From: Acidobacteriota bacterium
GTDB lineage: Bacteria; Acidobacteriota; Holophagae; Holophagales; Holophagaceae
Length of the DNA: 64,000 bases
Assembly (NCBI GenBank): GCA_016195985.1
Contig: JACPYP010000016.1
Coordinates: 186,001 to 250,000, forward strand
Direction: 5' to 3'
Position numbers and translations under genes: made by a program. The notes beneath the pieces are model-generated. The model worked only from the letters and a program-made list of their open reading frames with translations, was not told the DNA's origin and did not search any database. The first letter of the stretch is position 1, and each line of letters begins with the position of its first letter. Below are positions 24,609 through 55,149 of this stretch, one piece after another.

Positions 24609-27422
24609 CTACTCCACCGCCCGCAGCTGCGCGGCGAAGGCGTCCAGGGCTCTGTAGTAGGGATCGACGCTGGGGATGTAATGGCGTTCGCCGGCGGCAT
24701 GGGGACCAATGCCGGTCTGGCCCCAGACCACGGCCTGGCCGCCCGGGGCGAACCGCGCGGAGGTTCCCGCGCCCTTGCGGCCGATGCGGACCTCGCCCCC
24801 GGCGCTCTCGATGCCCGCCAACAGGGCCTTCAGATAGGGGTTCCCGGGATCGCAGGCCACGCCGGGCTCCCAGGCGGAGGGAATGAACTCCAGCTGGCGT
24901 TCGGCCACCAGGGCTTCGATCTCGAGCCGCATCTTCGACACATCGTCCTGGGGGATGGGGCGGATCTCCACGCCCAGGGCGCCACGGTCCGGCGTGATGT
25001 TGAAGATGCCGGGCGTGCCCACCTGGATGTAGGCGAAGCGGGCCAGGGACTGCCAGCCGTCCGCCGACTTCAGGGTGAGGTGCCTGGCGAAGAGCTCGCG
25101 CAGGGCCTCCCGGGCGCTGAGCAGGCGCTCGGTGAGATCGCTGCCGCCCACCAGGCCGCTGTGGCCGCGGGTGCCGTGGGCCACCAGCTCGAAGCGGAGG
25201 ACGCCGCGGTTCTGGGTGCACACCTCGCCCCAGAGTTCCGTGCCCTTCTCCCCGGTGCGCTCGCCGGCGATGAGGAAGGCAGGCTCGTAGCCGCTTTCAT
25301 CCTTCAAGACCTTCAGGACGTGGGGCGTGCCCATGGGCTCCTGCTCGCCGTTCTCCTCGTTGCCCAGCAGCAGCAGGTTGACGGGCGGGTAGGGGGCGCC
25401 CTTCTTGAGGGTGTCCTTCATCCACACGAGGTAGGTCGACACCACCGTCTTCATGTCGGCGGCGCCGCGGCCCCAGAGGTAGTCGCCTTCGATCTTCGGC
25501 TCGAACTGGCTGTCATCGGGCTCGGGCGCCACCACGTCAAAGTGGCCGCAGAGCATGGCCGGGGCCTGCTCGCCGCCGGGGAAATGGGCGAACACGGCGG
25601 GGAAGGGGCCCCCGTCGAACATCCGCACGGGCACGCCGTGGTTGCGGAGGTAGTCGTAGACGAAGGTGGCGGCGCGGTGCACTTCCGGCAGCCGCTCTTC
25701 AGGGCAGGCTGTGACGCTGGGGATGCGCACCAGGCGCTGGGAGAGATCCAGCACCTCGGCGGTCTTGTCCGTGTATTCCGTCTCCACCAGGCTCTCGGGG
25801 CGGGGCTGGAAGCGCACGGGGGCCTGGGGATCCAGGTGGACTTCATCACGGGCGTGCTCCACGAAATCGCGCAGCTTGCCCTGCTCGCCGCCCAGGTCGG
25901 CCAGATGGGCCGTGATGGTTTCCACATCGCCCCGGACCTGGTCCTTGCGGGCCTCGGCCAGCTCCACCAGGAGGCCGGCGGGCACGATGTCCGAGCTGCC
26001 GATCTTGGCCTTCAGGCGCTGGCGGATCTTCTCGGCGGTGCTGGGCGCGCCGGCGGCCAGGGCCACCAGGGGCTGCAGGTCCTCCCAGAGGCCGAGGGCC
26101 TCCGCCATGGGCCGCATCTGCTGGAGGGTCCAGGCCAGGAACGCTGATAGCGCGACAGGCTTGGCCGTGAGGGGATCCTCGATGACGGCCTTCAGGCCCT
26201 CCTTGGCGGCCAGGTTCTCGTTGCGGCGGGCCCGCTTGATGTCCTCGGCGTCGTAGCGGAAGCCGCGGGCAAAGTCGGGATCGGCGTAGAAGCGGAGCAG
26301 CAGCAGGTGCTTCAGGGTGAGGTTCGCCACGTCGAGGGCCAAATCGTGGCAGGGGTCGTCTGTGCGGACTTCCACGCGGGCCATGGGCAGGTCGATGCGG
26401 GCGAAGAGGTTCTGGCGCTCGATCTGCGCGGCCATGTCCTCCACGTTTCGCGTCTCGCCGGCGGCGAAGAGGCCCCGGGCGTAGATGTCATGGAGCTGGT
26501 CGCTGGTGACCTGGATGAGGCGTTCCACGGGCTCCGCCTGGGAGCGGGCGCGCACGGGGATCCAGTTGTTGTTGCCGAAGCGGACGCCGCTGCGCACCAG
26601 CTCGTAGGACAGGCGCAGGTAGTCCGGGTGGCTGCGGTTGAGGTCCGGCACGTCCAGGGCGGGCGGGTTTGGGAAGGTGAGGTTGCGCACGGATTCGAAG
26701 GGCGTGAGCCGGACGACCGGCTTGCCGTTCTCTTCGGAGGCCTGCAGGGGCGTGCTGGCGCTGGCGGCGATGAAGACGGCCGCGAAGGCGCGCATGAAGC
26801 GGGTGCCCGTGATGTAGACGTGGTTCTTGTAGTCGTCGAGGTGCGTGTCGCCCCGCTCGGCGGCGGGCAGGTGCATGAAGTCCCAGGCCAGCATGGGTTC
26901 GGGCAGGCTCAGGTTGGAGTGGGTGCCGGCCGTGGCCAGCTCGGTGCCGTACATGTCCACGCAGCGCTGCAGGTAACGGCGCTTGGCCAGGTGCCAGGAC
27001 TCGGGCACGCAGTCCGGACCGATCTTGGGCAGCACGAGGAGGTTGCCGTGCCAGTAGTTAAGGGGTTCGCCGAAGGCGCGTCCGGCCTTGGCCAGGGCGT
27101 TGATGAGGGCGCCCTCCAGCAGGCGCCCCTCGTACACGGCGCCCTTGGGCGTGTGGTAGGGCTTGGTGACGAACTCGATCATCCAGTGGAAGACTTCCAG
27201 CTGGTGGTATTCCTCGGTCCAGGGTGCCAGCACCTTGGCCCGCAGGTGGTCCACGAAGGACATGCGGTCCGGCCCCGTGCCCACGGTGAGCAGGGGGCGG
27301 AACTGGGGATCCATGAGGTTCCACTCCAGCTCCAGGCCGCAAAGCCCGCCCGTGGGGCGGGTTTCCAGCGCCGTTTGGCGGGCCAGCTGGAACTTCTCGA
27401 CGAAGGCATTCAGATCAAACAT
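24609..27422 (-). CDS. Fusion: glutamate-cysteine-ligase-like domain plus M20 metallopeptidase
   Basis: 937 aa from the ATG at 27422 (CGGAG upstream). Residues about 1-540 resemble the GCS2/GshA ligase family: acidic pair in CGLELEWNLMDP (Glu31, Glu33), ATAGTHSNLSLPEPM (about 163-177) and RVEVRTDDPCHDLALDVANL (about 349-368). Residues about 555-937 form an M20 zinc peptidase with GHFDVV (His627, Asp629), GRGAADMK (Asp656), GNEENGE (Glu689, Glu690) and a late His in IGPHAAGERHYIP. M20 enzymes hydrolyse peptides or N-acyl amino acids. The combination suggests making or breaking gamma-glutamyl-type amide bonds, but activity is unproven. It precedes an accordion palindrome and follows the aminotransferase gene on the same strand. 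Confidence 0.8.
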   Translation of the reverse strand: MFDLNAFVEKFQLARQTALETRPTGGLCGLELEWNLMDPQFRPLLTVGTGPDRMSFVDHLRAKVLAPWTEEYHQLEVFHWMIEFVTKPYHTPKGAVYEGRLLEGALINALAKAGRAFGEPLNYWHGNLLVLPKIGPDCVPESWHLAKRRYLQRCVDMYGTELATAGTHSNLSLPEPMLAWDFMHLPAAERGDTHLDDYKNHVYITGTRFMRAFAAVFIAASASTPLQASEENGKPVVRLTPFESVRNLTFPNPPALDVPDLNRSHPDYLRLSYELVRSGVRFGNNNWIPVRARSQAEPVERLIQVTSDQLHDIYARGLFAAGETRNVEDMAAQIERQNLFARIDLPMARVEVRTDDPCHDLALDVANLTLKHLLLLRFYADPDFARGFRYDAEDIKRARRNENLAAKEGLKAVIEDPLTAKPVALSAFLAWTLQQMRPMAEALGLWEDLQPLVALAAGAPSTAEKIRQRLKAKIGSSDIVPAGLLVELAEARKDQVRGDVETITAHLADLGGEQGKLRDFVEHARDEVHLDPQAPVRFQPRPESLVETEYTDKTAEVLDLSQRLVRIPSVTACPEERLPEVHRAATFVYDYLRNHGVPVRMFDGGPFPAVFAHFPGGEQAPAMLCGHFDVVAPEPDDSQFEPKIEGDYLWGRGAADMKTVVSTYLVWMKDTLKKGAPYPPVNLLLLGNEENGEQEPMGTPHVLKVLKDESGYEPAFLIAGERTGEKGTELWGEVCTQNRGVLRFELVAHGTRGHSGLVGGSDLTERLLSAREALRELFARHLTLKSADGWQSLARFAYIQVGTPGIFNITPDRGALGVEIRPIPQDDVSKMRLEIEALVAERQLEFIPSAWEPGVACDPGNPYLKALLAGIESAGGEVRIGRKGAGTSARFAPGGQAVVWGQTGIGPHAAGERHYIPSVDPYYRALDAFAAQLRAVE

Positions 27423-27457: not shown

Positions 27458-27529
27458 TCACCACCAAGTCACCAAGACACCAAGAAAATCCAAAACTGCC
27501 TTGCTCTGTTCTTGGCGCCTTGGTGGTGA
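27458..27529. repeat. Intergenic palindrome (CACCACCAAG type)
   Basis: TCACCACCAAG (27458-27468) and CTTGGTGGTGA (27519-27529) form perfect 11-bp arms; further CACCAAG/CTTGG units lie inside. Between two minus-strand genes. Confidence 0.8.
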
Positions 27530-27534
27530 GTCTT

Positions 27535-28845
27535 TTAATGCTGGAGGGCCTTCAGCGCATCGATCAGCCGTTTCGCCGCGCCCTGGGTGCGTTCGACGGG
27601 GGTGGCGTAGGAGAAGCGGATCCAGTCGGCGCCGTAGGGGCTGAAGAAGGCGCCGGGCACCACGGCCACGCCATGGTTCTCGGCGAAGTGCTGGCCCAGG
27701 GGCTCGGAGTCCGCCCAGCCCTTGGCCTTCAGGCCCTCGGCCACGTGGATGAAGGCGTAGTAGCCCTGGCCGATGATGTGCGTGAGGCCCTGGGTTTTCA
27801 AATACTCGCGGATCCAGGCTCGGCTCGCGCGGCAGGGCCCCACGATGGGGGCGGCGGCTTCCTGCAGGCCCTTCTCGTAGGCGGCCATGGCCACGGCCAG
27901 ACTGAAGAACGACGGGATGACGGTGTGGGAGGCCTGGGCCACGATGGTCTTCACCACGTCGGCGTCCGCCAGCAGGTGGCAGTTGCGGATGTTGGATCCG
28001 CCCAGGCTCTTGGTGATGCCATCGAGCACCATGAGGCGCTTGCGCTGGGCCGGCTCGAAGGCGCGCAGCAGCACGTTCACGTCATAGGGCTCATCGTCGC
28101 CCACCGCGTGGTACATCCAGTCGAAGAGCACGAAGGCGATGCCCGCTTCCAGGGCCGCGCGGGCCAGCTCGATCTGGCGCTGCAGCGTGAGGGTCTGGCC
28201 CGTGGGGTTGTCGGGGCTGGTGATGACGAGGCCGGCCACCTTGCGGCCCGTCTTCGCGGCTTCGGTGACGCAGGCGCGAAGGCCGTCTTCGGTGTAGGCC
28301 CAGCCCTCTTCGGCGCGGCCCGGCGCCCACATGACGTTGGCGCCGATGCCGTAGGGGCCCCAGTTGTAGCTGATCCAGGGCACGCGGCTCACGACGATCA
28401 CGTCGCCCTGGCGGCCGTGGCCCAGGGCCAGCATGGCCTGGTAGGCCTTCTGCAGGCCATCGCGGCCGCCCTGGGTGCCGATGACGTTGGCCGTGCCCCA
28501 GCCCGTGTCCGGCGCCAGCTTCCAGTAGGACTCGGCCACGATACGGCGGTAGGCCTCGGTGCCGAAGGGCATGTCGTAGGCCGTGCCGTGCTGCTTCTGC
28601 AGCTCGAAGGCGCGATCGAGCAGGGCCCCGGGCACGCCGGGCAGGGAGGCGCCGCCATCGCCCTGGCTGGCGTCGAAGACCGGCACGCCGGGCTGTTTCT
28701 CCTGGAACACCTTCAACGATTTGTTGATGAGGAACATGCGCGAAGCGGGAATGGGCGCCATTCGGCCCAGGTGATCGCTCACGGGGACGAGGTTCGCTTG
28801 AGGTACGGCGAAGGCTGGGGTCTCGGGAGAGAGCAGGTGGGACAC
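27535..28845 (-). CDS. PLP-dependent aminotransferase, class I/II
   Basis: Fold-type I aminotransferase, 436 aa. The start is a GTG at 28845, where GGAGG lies 4 nt upstream; upstream in-frame codons look non-coding. Recognisable elements: SYNWGPYGIGANVM, the substrate/PLP segment ITSPDNPTGQTLTLQRQIEL, YDVNVLLRAFEPAQRKRLMV and the Schiff-base lysine in LDGITKSLGGSNIRN. The unusual N-terminus (FLINKSLKVFQEKQPGVPVF) and the TQGGRDGLQKAYQAM segment resemble a poorly characterised subgroup. Substrate unknown. It follows proBA on the same strand after a 248-nt gap. Confidence 0.85.
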   Translation of the reverse strand: MSHLLSPETPAFAVPQANLVPVSDHLGRMAPIPASRMFLINKSLKVFQEKQPGVPVFDASQGDGGASLPGVPGALLDRAFELQKQHGTAYDMPFGTEAYRRIVAESYWKLAPDTGWGTANVIGTQGGRDGLQKAYQAMLALGHGRQGDVIVVSRVPWISYNWGPYGIGANVMWAPGRAEEGWAYTEDGLRACVTEAAKTGRKVAGLVITSPDNPTGQTLTLQRQIELARAALEAGIAFVLFDWMYHAVGDDEPYDVNVLLRAFEPAQRKRLMVLDGITKSLGGSNIRNCHLLADADVVKTIVAQASHTVIPSFFSLAVAMAAYEKGLQEAAAPIVGPCRASRAWIREYLKTQGLTHIIGQGYYAFIHVAEGLKAKGWADSEPLGQHFAENHGVAVVPGAFFSPYGADWIRFSYATPVERTQGAAKRLIDALKALQH

Positions 28846-29093
28846 GGATCCTCCAGGTGCGTGGGAACGCAGGTGGGCCGATATGAAAAGGTCGCCCCTG
28901 CGAAACCGCAAGGACGACAAACTCAATTCAAGAATAGCAGTGGATGGGCTCGCTCGAAGACTGGGAATTTGACAAAGGCAATTCCAAAGAACGAAAACCT
29001 TACAAATTGTTCAATTGGTGATCCATCGATCGGATGCGCCGTGGATCCGCTGCGGCCTAATAAAAGCCGTGATTATCTTCTTATAAGCGGGCC
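28846..29093. promoter_or_regulatory. AT-richer intergenic region upstream of the aminotransferase
   Basis: 248 nt between proA and the aminotransferase, less GC-rich than the genes. It holds a small palindrome GGAATT (28964-28969)/AATTCC (28980-28985). A promoter for the aminotransferase is likely here, but no box pair is convincing. Confidence 0.35.
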
Positions 29094-30416
29094 TTATGGC
29101 TGGTTGATGTCCTTGTCTTTGTGTCGGAAAAGACGGGCACCCTGGCCGGTGTAATCCGCCACTTGATGGCCGTTCCCGCGCAGCAGGTAGCGATGGCTGA
29201 GCAGGCCTTCCAGGCCCACGGGCCCCCGCGCATGGATGCGGCCGGTGCTGATGCCCACCTCGGCGCCGAAGCCGTAGCGGAAGCCGTCGGCGAAGCGGGT
29301 GGAGGCGTTGTGGAAAACGCCCGCCGCATCGACCTCTGCCAGGAAGCGCGCGGCGGCGGCGCTGTCTCCGGTGACGATGGCCTCCGTGTGGCCGCTCCCG
29401 TGGGCACGTATGTGGGCCAGGGCCTCGTCCAGATCCGCCACGATTTTCACGGCGAGGATGGGCGCGCCGTACTCGGCGTCCCAATCATCTTCCGTGGCGG
29501 GGAGAAGGTCGGGGATGAGTGCGAGGCAGCGGGCGCAGCCCCGCAGCTCCACGCCTCGCGGGCGCAGGTCTTCCACCAGCCTGGGCAGAAGCCGCGCCGC
29601 GGCCCGCTGGTGGATGAGCACCGTCTCCACGGCGTTGCAGGCGGCGGGGTACTGCAGCTTTCCATCCCGCACCAGGGCCAGCGCCATGGCGGGGTCGGCG
29701 GCCTCGTCGAGCACCATGTGGCACACGCCGTCGGCGTGGCCCAACACAGGAATGCGGGTGGAGGACTGGATGGCCCGCACCAGCGCCTTGGACCCGCGGG
29801 GGATGACGAGATCCACCAGGTCGGGCCGTTGCAGCAGGGCGTGGACGGCTTCGCGGCCAGGCAGGCTCTGGACGGCTCCTTCGGGCAGCTGCGCTTCCCG
29901 CAGCGCCGCTTGAACCAGTTCCACGAGCAGGGCGTTGGAACGGCAGGCCTCGCTGCCACCCTTGAGCAGCGCCGCATTGCCGCTCTTGAGGGCCAGGGAG
30001 GCGATCTGGACGAGGGCGTCGGGGCGGGCCTCGAAGATCACGCATAGCACGCCGAGGGGGCAGGTGACGCGGGTGAGTTCCAGGCCCTCGTCCAGCTCGC
30101 GGCGCAGCTGCACCTGGCGGAGAGGGTCGGGCAGGGCGGCCACGGCGCGGACGCCTTCCGCCATGGCCGCCACCTTGGCAGGATCCAGGCGGAGCCTTTG
30201 CAGGGTGGCGGCATCGAGGGCCCCGGCCTCCCGGAGGTCTTCGGCCCCGGCCTCCCGGAGGTCTTCGGCATTGGCCTCCAGCAGGGCGGCGGCCCGTCCC
30301 TCCAACAGGCCGGCAAGATGCTGCAGCGCGGCGTCGCGCTGCCCGGCGGGGGTGATGGCGAGGCGGCGGGAGGCCTGCCGGGCGGCTTCGGCCATGGCCT
30401 GGGCGGTGGCGGTCAT
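29094..30416 (-). CDS. proA: Gamma-glutamyl phosphate reductase
   Basis: Reduces gamma-glutamyl phosphate to glutamate-5-semialdehyde in proline synthesis. 440 aa from the ATG at 30416, which overlaps the proB stop as ATGA. Family segments: [20 protein letters not shown], the [16 protein letters not shown] loop, [16 protein letters not shown], catalytic cysteine in [17 protein letters not shown] and [15 protein letters not shown]. Near residue 60 the peptide AEDLREAG occurs twice in a row, from a perfect 24-bp tandem duplication, adding eight residues to the N-terminal helix; the frame stays open. Confidence 0.95.
30219..30266. repeat. Perfect 24-bp tandem duplication inside proA
   Basis: Units 30219-30242 and 30243-30266 are identical and in frame, encoding AEDLREAG twice. 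Looks like recent replication slippage. Confidence 0.95.
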
Positions 30417-31300
30417 GAGGAAACCCCCTTCATGGCGCATTGGAAGAAGGTGCCCACGGGTTCGCCGGCGAGGATCTGATCGAGGATGCGGGGCGCCAGT
30501 CCCGAGGCCAGGGCCACGGGAACGCCCGCCTGCGCGGCCTGCCGGGCAGCCGCCACCTTGCTGGCCATGCCGCCCCGTCCGCCCGCGGAGGTGCCCGCGA
30601 GGTTCACGGAGAGATCGGCTTCGAAGGGAACATGGACGAGGGGAGTGGCGCCGGGATTCAAGCCCGGATCCTCCGTGTGGAGGGCGCTCACATCCGAAAG
30701 CAGGATGAGCAGGTCGGCCTCCAGATGCGCGGCCACCAGGGCGGAGAGGTGGTCGTTGTCGCTGAAGACGGGACGCGGGCCGGGGCCGGACTCGGGGTTG
30801 GGTCCGGGGCCTGGTCGCTCCAGTTCCAGGGTGGAGACGGTGTCGTTCTCGTTGAGCACCGGAACGGCGCCCAGTTCCAGCAGGGTTTCCAGCGTGTGCC
30901 GCAGGTTGAGGTGGCGCAGGGAGTCGGTGAAATCATCCTCGGTGAGCAGCACCTGGGCGGCCCGAAGGCCCAGCCGGGCGAAGCCCTCCTGGTAGAGGGC
31001 CATGAGCAATCCCTGGCCCACCGCCGCACAGGCCTGTTTCTGGACCAGGGTCCGAGGCTGGAGGCCCAATTGGCGGGCCCCGAGCCCCACGGCCCCGGAG
31101 GAGACGAGCAGCGGCTCTCCACCTCGCCGCCGCAGGGCGGCCACGCTTTCCATGAGGCTGTACAGGCGGCTGAGGGCAGGGCGGCCCTCGGCATCCACCA
31201 CCACCAGGGTGCCCAGCTTCACGACGATGCGTCGCGCTGTGGTGCAGGGGGCGCGGGGATTCACAACCGTGGGTTCGTGGGCGGATTGAGGCGAGGCCAT
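30413..31300 (-). CDS. proB: Glutamate 5-kinase without PUA domain
   Basis: Phosphorylates glutamate, the first committed step of proline synthesis. 295 aa, with the kinase segments [68 protein letters not shown] and the [20 protein letters not shown] nucleotide region. It ends soon after, so it lacks the C-terminal PUA domain of the E. coli enzyme. Insert residues rich in Pro/Gly ([15 protein letters not shown]) interrupt the substrate region. The ATG at 31300 has GGAAG 5 nt upstream; an in-frame TTG at 31312 is less likely. A terminator-like hairpin ends only about 19 nt before this start codon. Confidence 0.93.
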
Positions 31301-31310
31301 GGGCGCTTCC

Positions 31311-31345
31311 AAAGAAAAACCCCCGATCCGTGTGCGGGTCGGGGG
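31311..31345 (-). promoter_or_regulatory. Intrinsic terminator just upstream of proB (putative attenuator)
   Basis: On the minus strand CCCCCGA-C-CCG-CACA-CGG-A-TCGGGGG is followed by TTTTTCTTT (31319-31311), then the proB Shine-Dalgarno (31310-31306). With about 19 nt between stem and start codon there is no room for a promoter downstream, so proB mRNA must read through it. It may alternatively end the upstream decarboxylase mRNA, but then proB would have no visible promoter. Confidence 0.7.
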
Positions 31346-31373
31346 GCGGGAAACAGGGTCGGCTGCTGCTAGA

Positions 31374-31442
31374 TCAGACGCTCCCTCCGGCCACCGGCTG
31401 GCTGTGGCTAGGGCGCGGGTTGGGGGTCAGGAGGCGGGACAT
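31374..31442 (-). CDS. Putative proline-rich leader peptide of proBA
   Basis: A 22-codon frame, MSRLLTPNPRPSHSQPVAGG plus two residues, with four proline codons (ccc, ccg, cct, ccg), three of them within five codons. Its stop is 28 nt upstream of the terminator stem, the geometry of amino-acid leader-peptide attenuators. The Shine-Dalgarno is weak; an in-frame ATG at 31505 (with GGAG about 10 nt upstream) would give a 43-residue version. The link to proline control is inferred from codon content and the downstream gene. Confidence 0.4.
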   Translation of the reverse strand: MSRLLTPNPRPSHSQPVAGGSV

Positions 31443-31555
31443 GATGCTGCCAGTGTGGAAGGTGCCGGTCCCGGACACAAGTGGTTGTTCAGACAGGATG
31501 GCCATCTTCTGCCCGCTCCGGGCGTTGCCAGCCATGCGGCGTGGCTGCGAGCGGT

Positions 31556-32968
31556 TCAGGCCCGGGCTGCTGCTTGCAGAGCATCCCACAGGGCCTGCAC
31601 GTGAGGCCGCTCGGTGGTCTCAGCGCCGATGCTCACTCGAAGCATCTGCTTGCCCTTGAGCAGGGAGGGCGTGAGGTAGGCCTTGCCGCCCTCATTGAGG
31701 CGGCGCGCCAGGTCCAGGTTGTGGGCGGCCAGGGCCGCTTCGTCCAGGCCGGGTTTCAGGTGCCGGATGCACACGGTCTGCAGGGGCACGGGGGCCAGCC
31801 GCTCCCAATCCGCGGTCCCGTCCACCTGGGCCCTGAACCACTGCGCGTTCTCCAGGTCGCGGCGCAGGCGCCCCTGCAGGCCCTCCACGCCCACGTCCAT
31901 GAGGAAGAACCACAGCTTCAGCGCCCGGAAGCGCCGTCCCAGCTGGATGTGCCAGTCCCGGAAGTTGCTCACTTGGCCGTCCTGCGCGGTGCGCAGGTAG
32001 CTTGGGTTGGTGCTCATGACGCGGATGAGGTGCTGGGGGTCTCGCACGTAGTAGGCGCTGAAATCGAAGCCCACGCCCATCCACTTGTGGGGGTTGAAGA
32101 TCACGCTATCGGCTCTCTCGACGCCCTCCCACATCCAGCGGCATTCGGGCAGAACCATGGCCGTGCCCGCCAGGGCGGCGTCCACGTGGAGCCAGAGGCC
32201 ATGCTGTTCGGCGAGGTCGGCCATGGCCGCCACGGGATCGATGGCCGTGGTGCCCGTGGTGCCCACGGCGGCCACCAGGGCGCAGGGGCGCAGGCCGATC
32301 TCCAGATCCTTCTCAAGGGCTGCCTTCAGCAGATCCAGGCGGATGGCGTGGTTCCCATCCGTGGGGATGAGGCGCAGGAAGCTGCGGCCGAAGCCCGCCA
32401 GCAGGGCGGCCTTCTCGATGGAGCTGTGGCCCTGGTCCGAGGCGTAGACCACCAGGGGCGCCTCGCCGCTCTGCAATCCCTCGGTGTCCTGGGCGTAGGC
32501 CGAGGCCTTTTCCCGGGCGCAGAGCAGGGCCGTGAAAGTGGCGGTGCTCGCGGTGTCGTGGATGACGCCCGTGAAGGCGGGGCTGAGGCCCACCATCTGC
32601 CGCAGCCAGTCCATGACCACCTCTTCCACTTCCGTGGCAGCGGGGCTGGTCTGCCAGCTCATGCCCTGGGCGCCGATGCCCGAGGCCGCGAGGTCGCCGA
32701 GGATCGAGGCGTAGGTGGTGTTGCTGGGGAAGTAGGCGAAGAAGGAGGGATGGTTCCAGTGCGTGATGCCGGGCATCACGTCCCGCTCCAAGGCCGCCAG
32801 AGCCTGGGCCATGCGGCCCCCCTGCTGGGGCGGATGGTCCGGGAAGGCCGAGCGGATCTCGCCGGGCAGCGCCCGGCTCATGACGGGCAGGCGTTCCATC
32901 CCTTCGCGGTAGTCCGCGATCCAATCGACGAGCTGATAACCGAGGCGGCGGAATTCTTGGGCGTCCAT
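31556..32968 (-). CDS. Group II PLP-dependent amino acid decarboxylase (AADC-like)
   Basis: 470-aa pyridoxal-phosphate decarboxylase of the aromatic-L-amino-acid/DOPA decarboxylase group. Typical N-terminus (FRRLGYQLVDWIADYREGME), SPAATEVEEVVMDWLRQMVG, the YASDQGHSSIEKAALLAG segment, LWLHVDAALAGTAMVLPECR and the PLP lysine in VIFNPHKWMGVGFDFSAYYV, followed by WHIQLGRRFRALKLWFFLMD. Length is typical. Substrate (Trp, Tyr, Phe or DOPA) is not assignable. It is divergent from a LysR gene 92 nt away, a common regulator-target arrangement. CTGGAGAGCCC precedes the ATG. Confidence 0.9.
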   Translation of the reverse strand: MDAQEFRRLGYQLVDWIADYREGMERLPVMSRALPGEIRSAFPDHPPQQGGRMAQALAALERDVMPGITHWNHPSFFAYFPSNTTYASILGDLAASGIGAQGMSWQTSPAATEVEEVVMDWLRQMVGLSPAFTGVIHDTASTATFTALLCAREKASAYAQDTEGLQSGEAPLVVYASDQGHSSIEKAALLAGFGRSFLRLIPTDGNHAIRLDLLKAALEKDLEIGLRPCALVAAVGTTGTTAIDPVAAMADLAEQHGLWLHVDAALAGTAMVLPECRWMWEGVERADSVIFNPHKWMGVGFDFSAYYVRDPQHLIRVMSTNPSYLRTAQDGQVSNFRDWHIQLGRRFRALKLWFFLMDVGVEGLQGRLRRDLENAQWFRAQVDGTADWERLAPVPLQTVCIRHLKPGLDEAALAAHNLDLARRLNEGGKAYLTPSLLKGKQMLRVSIGAETTERPHVQALWDALQAAARA

Positions 32969-52382: not shown

Positions 52383-52456
52383 CACCACGAAGACACGAAG
52401 GCTCGAAGAAAAGCTGTTCTTACTTTTTAACTTCGCGTCTTGGTGTCTTCGTGGTG
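52383..52456. repeat. Intergenic palindrome (CACCACGAAGACAC type)
   Basis: Perfect 14-bp arms CACCACGAAGACAC (52383-52396) and GTGTCTTCGTGGTG (52443-52456), with further GAAG/CTTC units inside. Between S46 copies 3 and 4. Confidence 0.88.
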
Positions 52457-55043: not shown

Positions 55044-55149
55044 CACCACCAAGCCACCAAGTTTCTTTTTGTCTCGTGTATCGCCGCAGGCGATACACGA
55101 GAAGAACTGCACGAATGGTGGCTCCGGTTTTCTTGTTGTCTTGGTGGTG
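55044..55149. repeat. Nested intergenic palindromes
   Basis: Outer arms CACCACCAAG (55044-55053)/CTTGGTGGTG (55140-55149) enclose a second, perfect 14-bp hairpin TCTCGTGTATCGCC (55072-55085)-GCA-complement (55089-55102). Between convergent genes. Confidence 0.85.

Follow-up and report, generated by a model that had tools for sequence, protein, structure and literature searches.

What might a single bacterial protein do that carries a glutamate-cysteine ligase (GCL)-like fold in its N-terminal half and an M20 hydrolase in its C-terminal half? A gene of this kind, hereafter FUS, lies in the 64,000-nucleotide stretch of DNA analysed here (the window). The original prediction had described one continuous frame with a GCL-like domain of about 540 residues, an intact acidic motif, and a complete M20 domain with its metal ligands. 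It had named no strand; reading of the minus strand revealed a single open frame with exactly the predicted limits, from an ATG at 27422 to a stop at 24609, which encodes 937 residues plus the stop and contains no internal stop codon. The GC content by codon position was 0.71, 0.44, and 0.93, the pattern that a genuine gene should show in a window of 67% GC. A literature search by title and the start of the abstract, with most subscription papers and bioRxiv outside its scope, found no characterised enzyme of GCL-fold/M20 layout, and a viral scan gave 10 stretches that matched a pattern, none of which was confirmed as a relative. FUS combines known enzyme superfamilies in a new architecture. 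The features of the locus are summarized in Table 1.

Table 1. Coordinates of FUS, its parts, and the neighbouring features in the window
Feature	Position	Strand	Evidence
FUS, GCL-fold ligase/M20 hydrolase fusion	24609..27422	-	Open frame; 45/47 genomes of the genus, 12/400 Chloroflexota genomes
N-half (residues 1-530), GCL/YbdK-type ligase fold	25833..27422	-	AlphaFold2 model and structure matches
GLELE (residues 29-33), GhExE Mg/ATP motif	27324..27338	-	G29, E31, and E33 invariant in 57/57 covering rows
VEVR (residues 350-353), acidic/Arg motif, late core strand	26364..26375	-	E351 and R353 invariant in 57/57 covering rows
C-half (residues 552-937), M20 hydrolase with lid domain	24612..25769	-	PF01546, 59.8 bits; structure
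AT, AspAT-fold PLP aminotransferase, upstream of FUS	27535..28926	-	PF00155, 76.4 bits; start uncertain
20-bp inverted repeat in the AT-FUS gap	27458..27529	.	Long hairpin fold

Within the whole protein, the N-half gave no Pfam match at E <= 1, and when scanned alone it reached 12.3 bits (E 0.11) against GCS2 (PF04107), below the cut-off of 21, so that it is not filed as Pfam GCS2. Under a loose limit (E <= 10), GCS2 was matched by 12 of 21 family members (best 1e-5) and Glu_cys_ligase by 10 of the 21 (best 0.0011), and a sequence-based search of the PDB with the N-half profile gave no chain at E <= 10. Alignment with hhalign was weak evidence by itself, with a probability of 76 and an E value of 2.3e-5 over 139 columns for a GCS2 alignment and, for E. 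coli GshA alone, a probability of only 10 (E 0.003).

Because a structural search with the whole model returned mostly M20 rows, the N-half was modelled separately with AlphaFold2 from an input alignment of 28 rows, giving a pLDDT of 88.6 and a pTM of 0.92. This model matched 1tt4 (Z 29.6, 343 residues, 3.0 A), YbdK (1r8g, Z 29.2), GshAB (3ln7, Z 25.6), Francisella GshA (3nzt, Z 24.3), and E. coli GCL (1va6, Z 23.6, 417 residues, 4.1 A). Structure prediction, which had been proposed as the check that might refute a GCL fold, thus returned one, and the domain ends at about residue 530, close to the length first suggested. The GhExE signature of the first core strand, defined for the carboxylate-amine/ammonia ligase superfamily in the part of the source available (PMC2588565), reads GLELE in the N-half. 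Conservation was counted in a 59-row alignment, with 57 rows covering the N-half and 58 the C-half. In addition to the motif residues G29, E31, and E33, the positions E76, E83, H168, N170, W287, R291, R293, E351, and R353 were invariant in all 57 rows, and the VEVR motif resembles IEVR in E. coli GshA when compared by eye. On the basis of the GhExE motif, the relatives' weak matches, and the modelled structure, the N-half is assigned a GCL fold; since it lies below the GCS2 cut-off, its substrate could be other than glutamate. It resembles the YbdK/GCS2 ligases and GshA in fold, in the GhExE motif, and in conserved acidic, His, and Arg residues, but FUS differs from them in its score below the GCS2 cut-off, its C-terminal M20 half, and the tie of its gene to an aminotransferase.

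The depupylase Dop (Z 21.5), PafA (Z 20.6), and the glutamine synthetases (about 14) were also among the structural neighbours. PafA and Dop are homologous and catalyse opposite reactions, as the accessible portion of PMC7947786 describes, and the N-half might likewise be a Dop-like hydrolase or deamidase of GS-like fold, so that FUS would hold two hydrolases. YbdK and the GCLs are closer to the model (Z 29 to 23), however, and we consider this reading extremely improbable.

The C-half scored well above the PF01546 cut-off of 24.6 bits. Its score against the lid/dimerisation family PF07687 was 17.6 bits vs a cut-off of 21, and structure matches span the whole of residues 549-937. The nearest structure was a Desulfovibrio metallopeptidase (2rb7, Z 37.6, 350 residues), and DapE (Z about 35), ArgE (34.7), carboxypeptidase G2 (32.1), and LysK (31.4) also matched. 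H627, D629, D656, E689, E690, E721, H754, and H908 were invariant in all 58 covering rows. All but H754 we take to be the M20 metal ligands, in agreement with the complete M20 domain originally described, and the lid-domain histidine is among the invariant residues. Positions in common with E. coli DapE include R739, H754, N808, and R821. Against the NCBIfam equivalogs, the C-half reached 86 of 284 bits for DapE, 36.4 of 297.7 for ArgE, and 37.4 of 363 for LysK, and it fell far below the cut-off of each of the 25 best-listed families. It is therefore like DapE, ArgE, and LysK in its M20 fold and metal ligands, and like DapE also in substrate-pocket positions, but it is far under their equivalog cut-offs and is fused to a ligase.

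The full-length model had a pTM of 0.65, compared with 0.92 for the N-half alone, and a low-confidence stretch at residues 543-546 lies between the halves, so that their mutual placing is not reliably predicted. The models do not show the substrate channelling suggested in the original prediction; the salvage of gamma-glutamyl compounds that it also suggested is possible.

The strongest functional clue for FUS is its pairing with an aminotransferase gene, AT, which adjoins it upstream across a gap of 112 bp and whose frame opens with TTG at 28926. The AT product matches PF00155 and is nearest to aspartate aminotransferases. Alignment of 12 module ATs with three aminotransferases from the same genome revealed that the PLP lysine, Asp, Asn, and carboxylate-binding Arg are kept, residues that we take to be those of amino-acid transaminases. 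A GntC/VioD-like reaction was considered for AT and set aside: GntC was the best NCBIfam row (95 bits of 415), and this match is uninformative because the same model gives higher scores, 222, 149, and 282 bits, to three further aminotransferases encoded in the genome.

A scan of named genomes gave 154 relatives, the best 80 of which were examined as loci. AT adjoins FUS in 71 of these best 80; of the other nine loci, six start no more than about 310 bp from FUS, and L107, L111, and L133 show 1.0-1.9 kb of sequence upstream of FUS without AT. Both genes are visible in 123 loci, counting duplicates, and in every one of these AT and FUS lie on the same strand, with a median gap of 116 bp, and the pair is kept even with intervening genes, up to 5.9 kb. 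The genes were read in the 13 loci with gaps of more than 600 bp, and no common third partner was present between AT and FUS. AT is the sole gene conserved beside FUS across loci, and no kinase, reductase, transporter, or thiol-related gene was conserved beside the pair in the loci compared.

The closest named relatives among the best 80 of 154 were Geothrix strains and Holophagaceae MAGs (84-94% identity), and the source genome belongs with Geothrix. The two genomes of the genus in which FUS was missed are MAGs, 80% and 71% complete; some rows from the genus are cut by contig ends, and the copy in G016 is in three pieces. We further performed profile searches in 396 Acidobacteriota and 400 Chloroflexota genomes, which score just a few best candidates per genome; the sampled genomes are related, and the counts are not independent events. 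Of the 396 Acidobacteriota genomes, 38 have an AT ortholog (E <= 1e-30), and these represent ten genera in four families; the ligase half was detected in 37 of these 38 and in no other Acidobacteriota genome of the sample. For 34 of the 37, the open frame that contains it is at least 936 residues long; contig-cut pieces in G177 and G202 still run into the M20 half, and in G420 two contig ends overlap inside the fusion protein. In the Chloroflexota genomes with the ligase half, every frame has at least 937 residues. AT-FUS is thus shared by Geothrix, other Acidobacteriota, and Chloroflexota. The phylogenetic profile of fused against separate genes, which had been proposed with the original prediction, showed the ligase half fused throughout, with no unfused copy in the 796 genomes of the two phyla.

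The halves of FUS might nonetheless be unrelated enzymes that became fused by chance and act on separate substrates; the domain arrangement is not reliably predicted, and the functional readings rest on sequence and models. However, members of two phyla retain the fusion, with 45-67% identity and intact residues in both halves, and we regard a chance association as very improbable.

In the 38th genome, G344, AT and the gene next after it, which encodes a stand-alone M20 protein of about 388 residues, occupy L049 7500-10038, and the ligase half was not found in that genome. The M20 tree is compatible with either history, loss of the ligase half in G344 or a pre-fusion state that never had it. 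The ligase is dispensable in G344, since AT and the stand-alone M20 are kept without it. This lasting pair of AT and M20 alone would suit a breakdown or salvage route, in which the M20 half would release an amino acid from a peptide or an N-acyl compound, AT would deaminate it, and the ligase half would recapture or re-route part of it; the structural nearness of the M20 half to general peptidases and deacylases points the same way. The ligase must matter, however, because the other 37 of the 38 genomes keep it with invariant active-site residues, and no conserved transporter gene adjoins the pair in the loci compared. G344 keeps this reading alive by arguing against an essential ligase, but we judge it distinctly unlikely.

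Phylogenetic analysis of FUS and AT (36 loci each) revealed in both trees a split, with an SH-aLRT of 100, between the other Acidobacteriota and a group of Holophagaceae and Chloroflexota, the Geothrix pair being closer to Anaerolineales than to other Acidobacteriota. Because both gene trees group Holophagaceae with Chloroflexota, AT and FUS were probably transferred together between the phyla. Holophagaceae fall among Chloroflexota in the FUS tree and beside them, with weak support (75), in the AT tree; the transfer may have run in either direction.

The nearness of the M20 half to DapE raised the idea of a missing lysine step. This was rejected, as the genome has its own lysine operon, with a DapE-type M20 gene, asd, lysC, dapB, dapA, dapD, an aminotransferase, and lysA. 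A step in ornithine or arginine synthesis, considered in view of the neighbouring proBA, was likewise not supported: proBA adjoin the pair in just part of Geothrix, and the genome has its own arginine cluster, comprising argD, N-acetylornithine carbamoyltransferase, argB, an argE-like M20 gene, argG, and argC. With the lysine and arginine genes located elsewhere in the genome, FUS is not a stray DapE or ArgE. The arginine cluster (L193 3993-13043, contig C30) indicates an acetylcitrulline route because it includes the N-acetylornithine carbamoyltransferase (387.8 bits, cut-off 288). FUS is also independent of proA, which scored above its cut-off in 28 of the 47 genomes of the genus, compared with 45 for FUS.

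Several further observations concern the surroundings of the pair. Where contigs allow, proA (window 29094-31312) adjoins AT-FUS, and G011, G020, and G035, listed as 100% complete, gave no proA match over the cut-off. A PLP decarboxylase, weakly diaminobutyrate-decarboxylase-like (161 of 900 bits), lies upstream in part of Geothrix (window 30413-32968), as does a short proB of 299 aa that covers positions 1-256 of a 363-position model. The inverted repeat in the AT-FUS gap is of a CTTGGTG type and folds strongly into a hairpin (-46.2 kcal/mol, z -4.6). The window contains further near copies (6 matches vs 0.02 expected, e.g. 52438-52453 and 55047-55146), as do many Geothrix loci (e.g. L061, L062, L068, L150), which suggests that it is probably a dispersed intergenic repeat outside the function of the module.

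Thiol chemistry was also weighed as a role for the pair. The ligase half would then make gamma-glutamylcysteine to serve as a cellular thiol, the M20 half would trim glutamate off its conjugates, and the PLP enzyme would be a C-S lyase acting on the cysteine conjugate. The nearest solved ligases include true GCLs as well as YbdK, to which a title in the reference list of PMC2588565 gives gamma-glutamyl:cysteine ligase activity. No GCS2 match was found in the source genome or in 17 other members of the genus, in a search that covered the GCS2 model. A precedent for the order of the later steps comes from Staphylococcus hominis, in which an M20-family dipeptidase precedes the final enzyme on a Cys conjugate, as far as the source available describes it (PMC11742315). 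However, AT is nearest to aspartate aminotransferases, no C-S lyase model was among its 25 best NCBIfam rows, and the loci compared have no conserved thiol-related gene beside the pair, which leaves thiol chemistry improbable.

From their superfamilies, ligation by the N-half and hydrolysis by the C-half are expected. AT-FUS probably belongs to an unrecognised small-molecule pathway, and our preferred reading, held tentatively, is that FUS is bifunctional and forms with AT a two-gene, three-activity pathway of gamma-glutamate masking, transamination, and unmasking. The N-half would act as an ATP-dependent carboxylate-amine ligase, coupling an amine to the gamma-carboxyl of glutamate, or of one of its close analogues, to give a masked amino group; AT would act on the gamma-glutamyl-masked compound; and the C-half, a putative dizinc M20 hydrolase, would cut the amide and remove the mask. 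We prefer this scheme because it gives each of the three activities a step and is closely paralleled in known pathways, but the order of the steps, and the action of both halves on the same bond, are guesses. The masking reading is favoured by both folds and their invariant catalytic residues, the co-occurrence with AT and the constant strand of the pair, the concordant deep split in both trees, the amino-acid transaminase residues of AT, the positions shared with DapE, and the likeness to LysK. Against it stand the lack of the ligase half in G344, the placing of the active sites, which is not reliably predicted, the N-half score under the GCS2 cut-off, and the absence of a conserved kinase or reductase, unlike in the LysW and ArgJ-type pathways.

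The ligase of the LysW/ArgW pathway has a fold unrelated to that of the N-half. The pathway itself is otherwise like the masking proposal in its glutamate gamma-carboxyl mask, aminotransferase, and M20 release: in the portion of PMC10433800 available, LysX attaches the amino group of the substrate to the gamma-carboxyl of the terminal glutamate of LysW, and LysK, DapE, and ArgE are homologues. LysW/ArgW uses a carrier protein, a kinase, and a reductase, however, none of which is conserved beside AT-FUS in the loci compared. The N-acyl lysine and arginine pathways follow the same masking logic as that proposed here. A stronger form of the masking reading, rather unlikely in our estimation, is carrier-free: free glutamate would be a throw-away mask, added and removed by the same polypeptide, and the pair would be a portable unit exchanged between Chloroflexota and Acidobacteriota for an amino compound unrecognised in both.

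The GCL and M20 folds of FUS differ from those of the trypanothione/glutathionylspermidine synthetase-amidases, which are ATP-grasp and CHAP, and we know of no aminotransferase partner of these enzymes. Like FUS, they combine a ligase with an amidase in a single polypeptide, and the opposed activities of trypanothione synthetase-amidase (PMC2784880, in the text accessible) make a regulated store a serious rival to masking. FUS would make and break a gamma-glutamyl store or signal, its two activities opposed on one bond, and AT would supply or remove the partner amino acid. That the ligase half is never unfused in the 796 genomes suits the keeping together of making and breaking, but the near-perfect tie to one AT would be left without a clear role and G344 would keep just the breaking half; on balance we think a store or signal unlikely. 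Among other members of the carboxylate-amine ligase superfamily, the Rv2566-type (papain-fold plus carboxylate-amine ligase) and CJD_1902-type families are fused to, or encoded near, a partner that is peptidase-like or cleaves gamma-glutamyl bonds (PMC2588565); their partners are of other folds, and neither M20 nor aminotransferase is mentioned in the part of that paper available.

A ligase and a hydrolase in one chain, tied to one aminotransferase in two phyla, point to a pathway that annotation misses because the N-half lies under the Pfam GCS2 cut-off. Since named Geothrix strains carry AT-FUS, routine enzymology and metabolomics could reach its substrate. Should the masking reading prove true, free gamma-glutamate would join acetyl, succinyl, and LysW among the amino masks of amino-acid biosynthesis.
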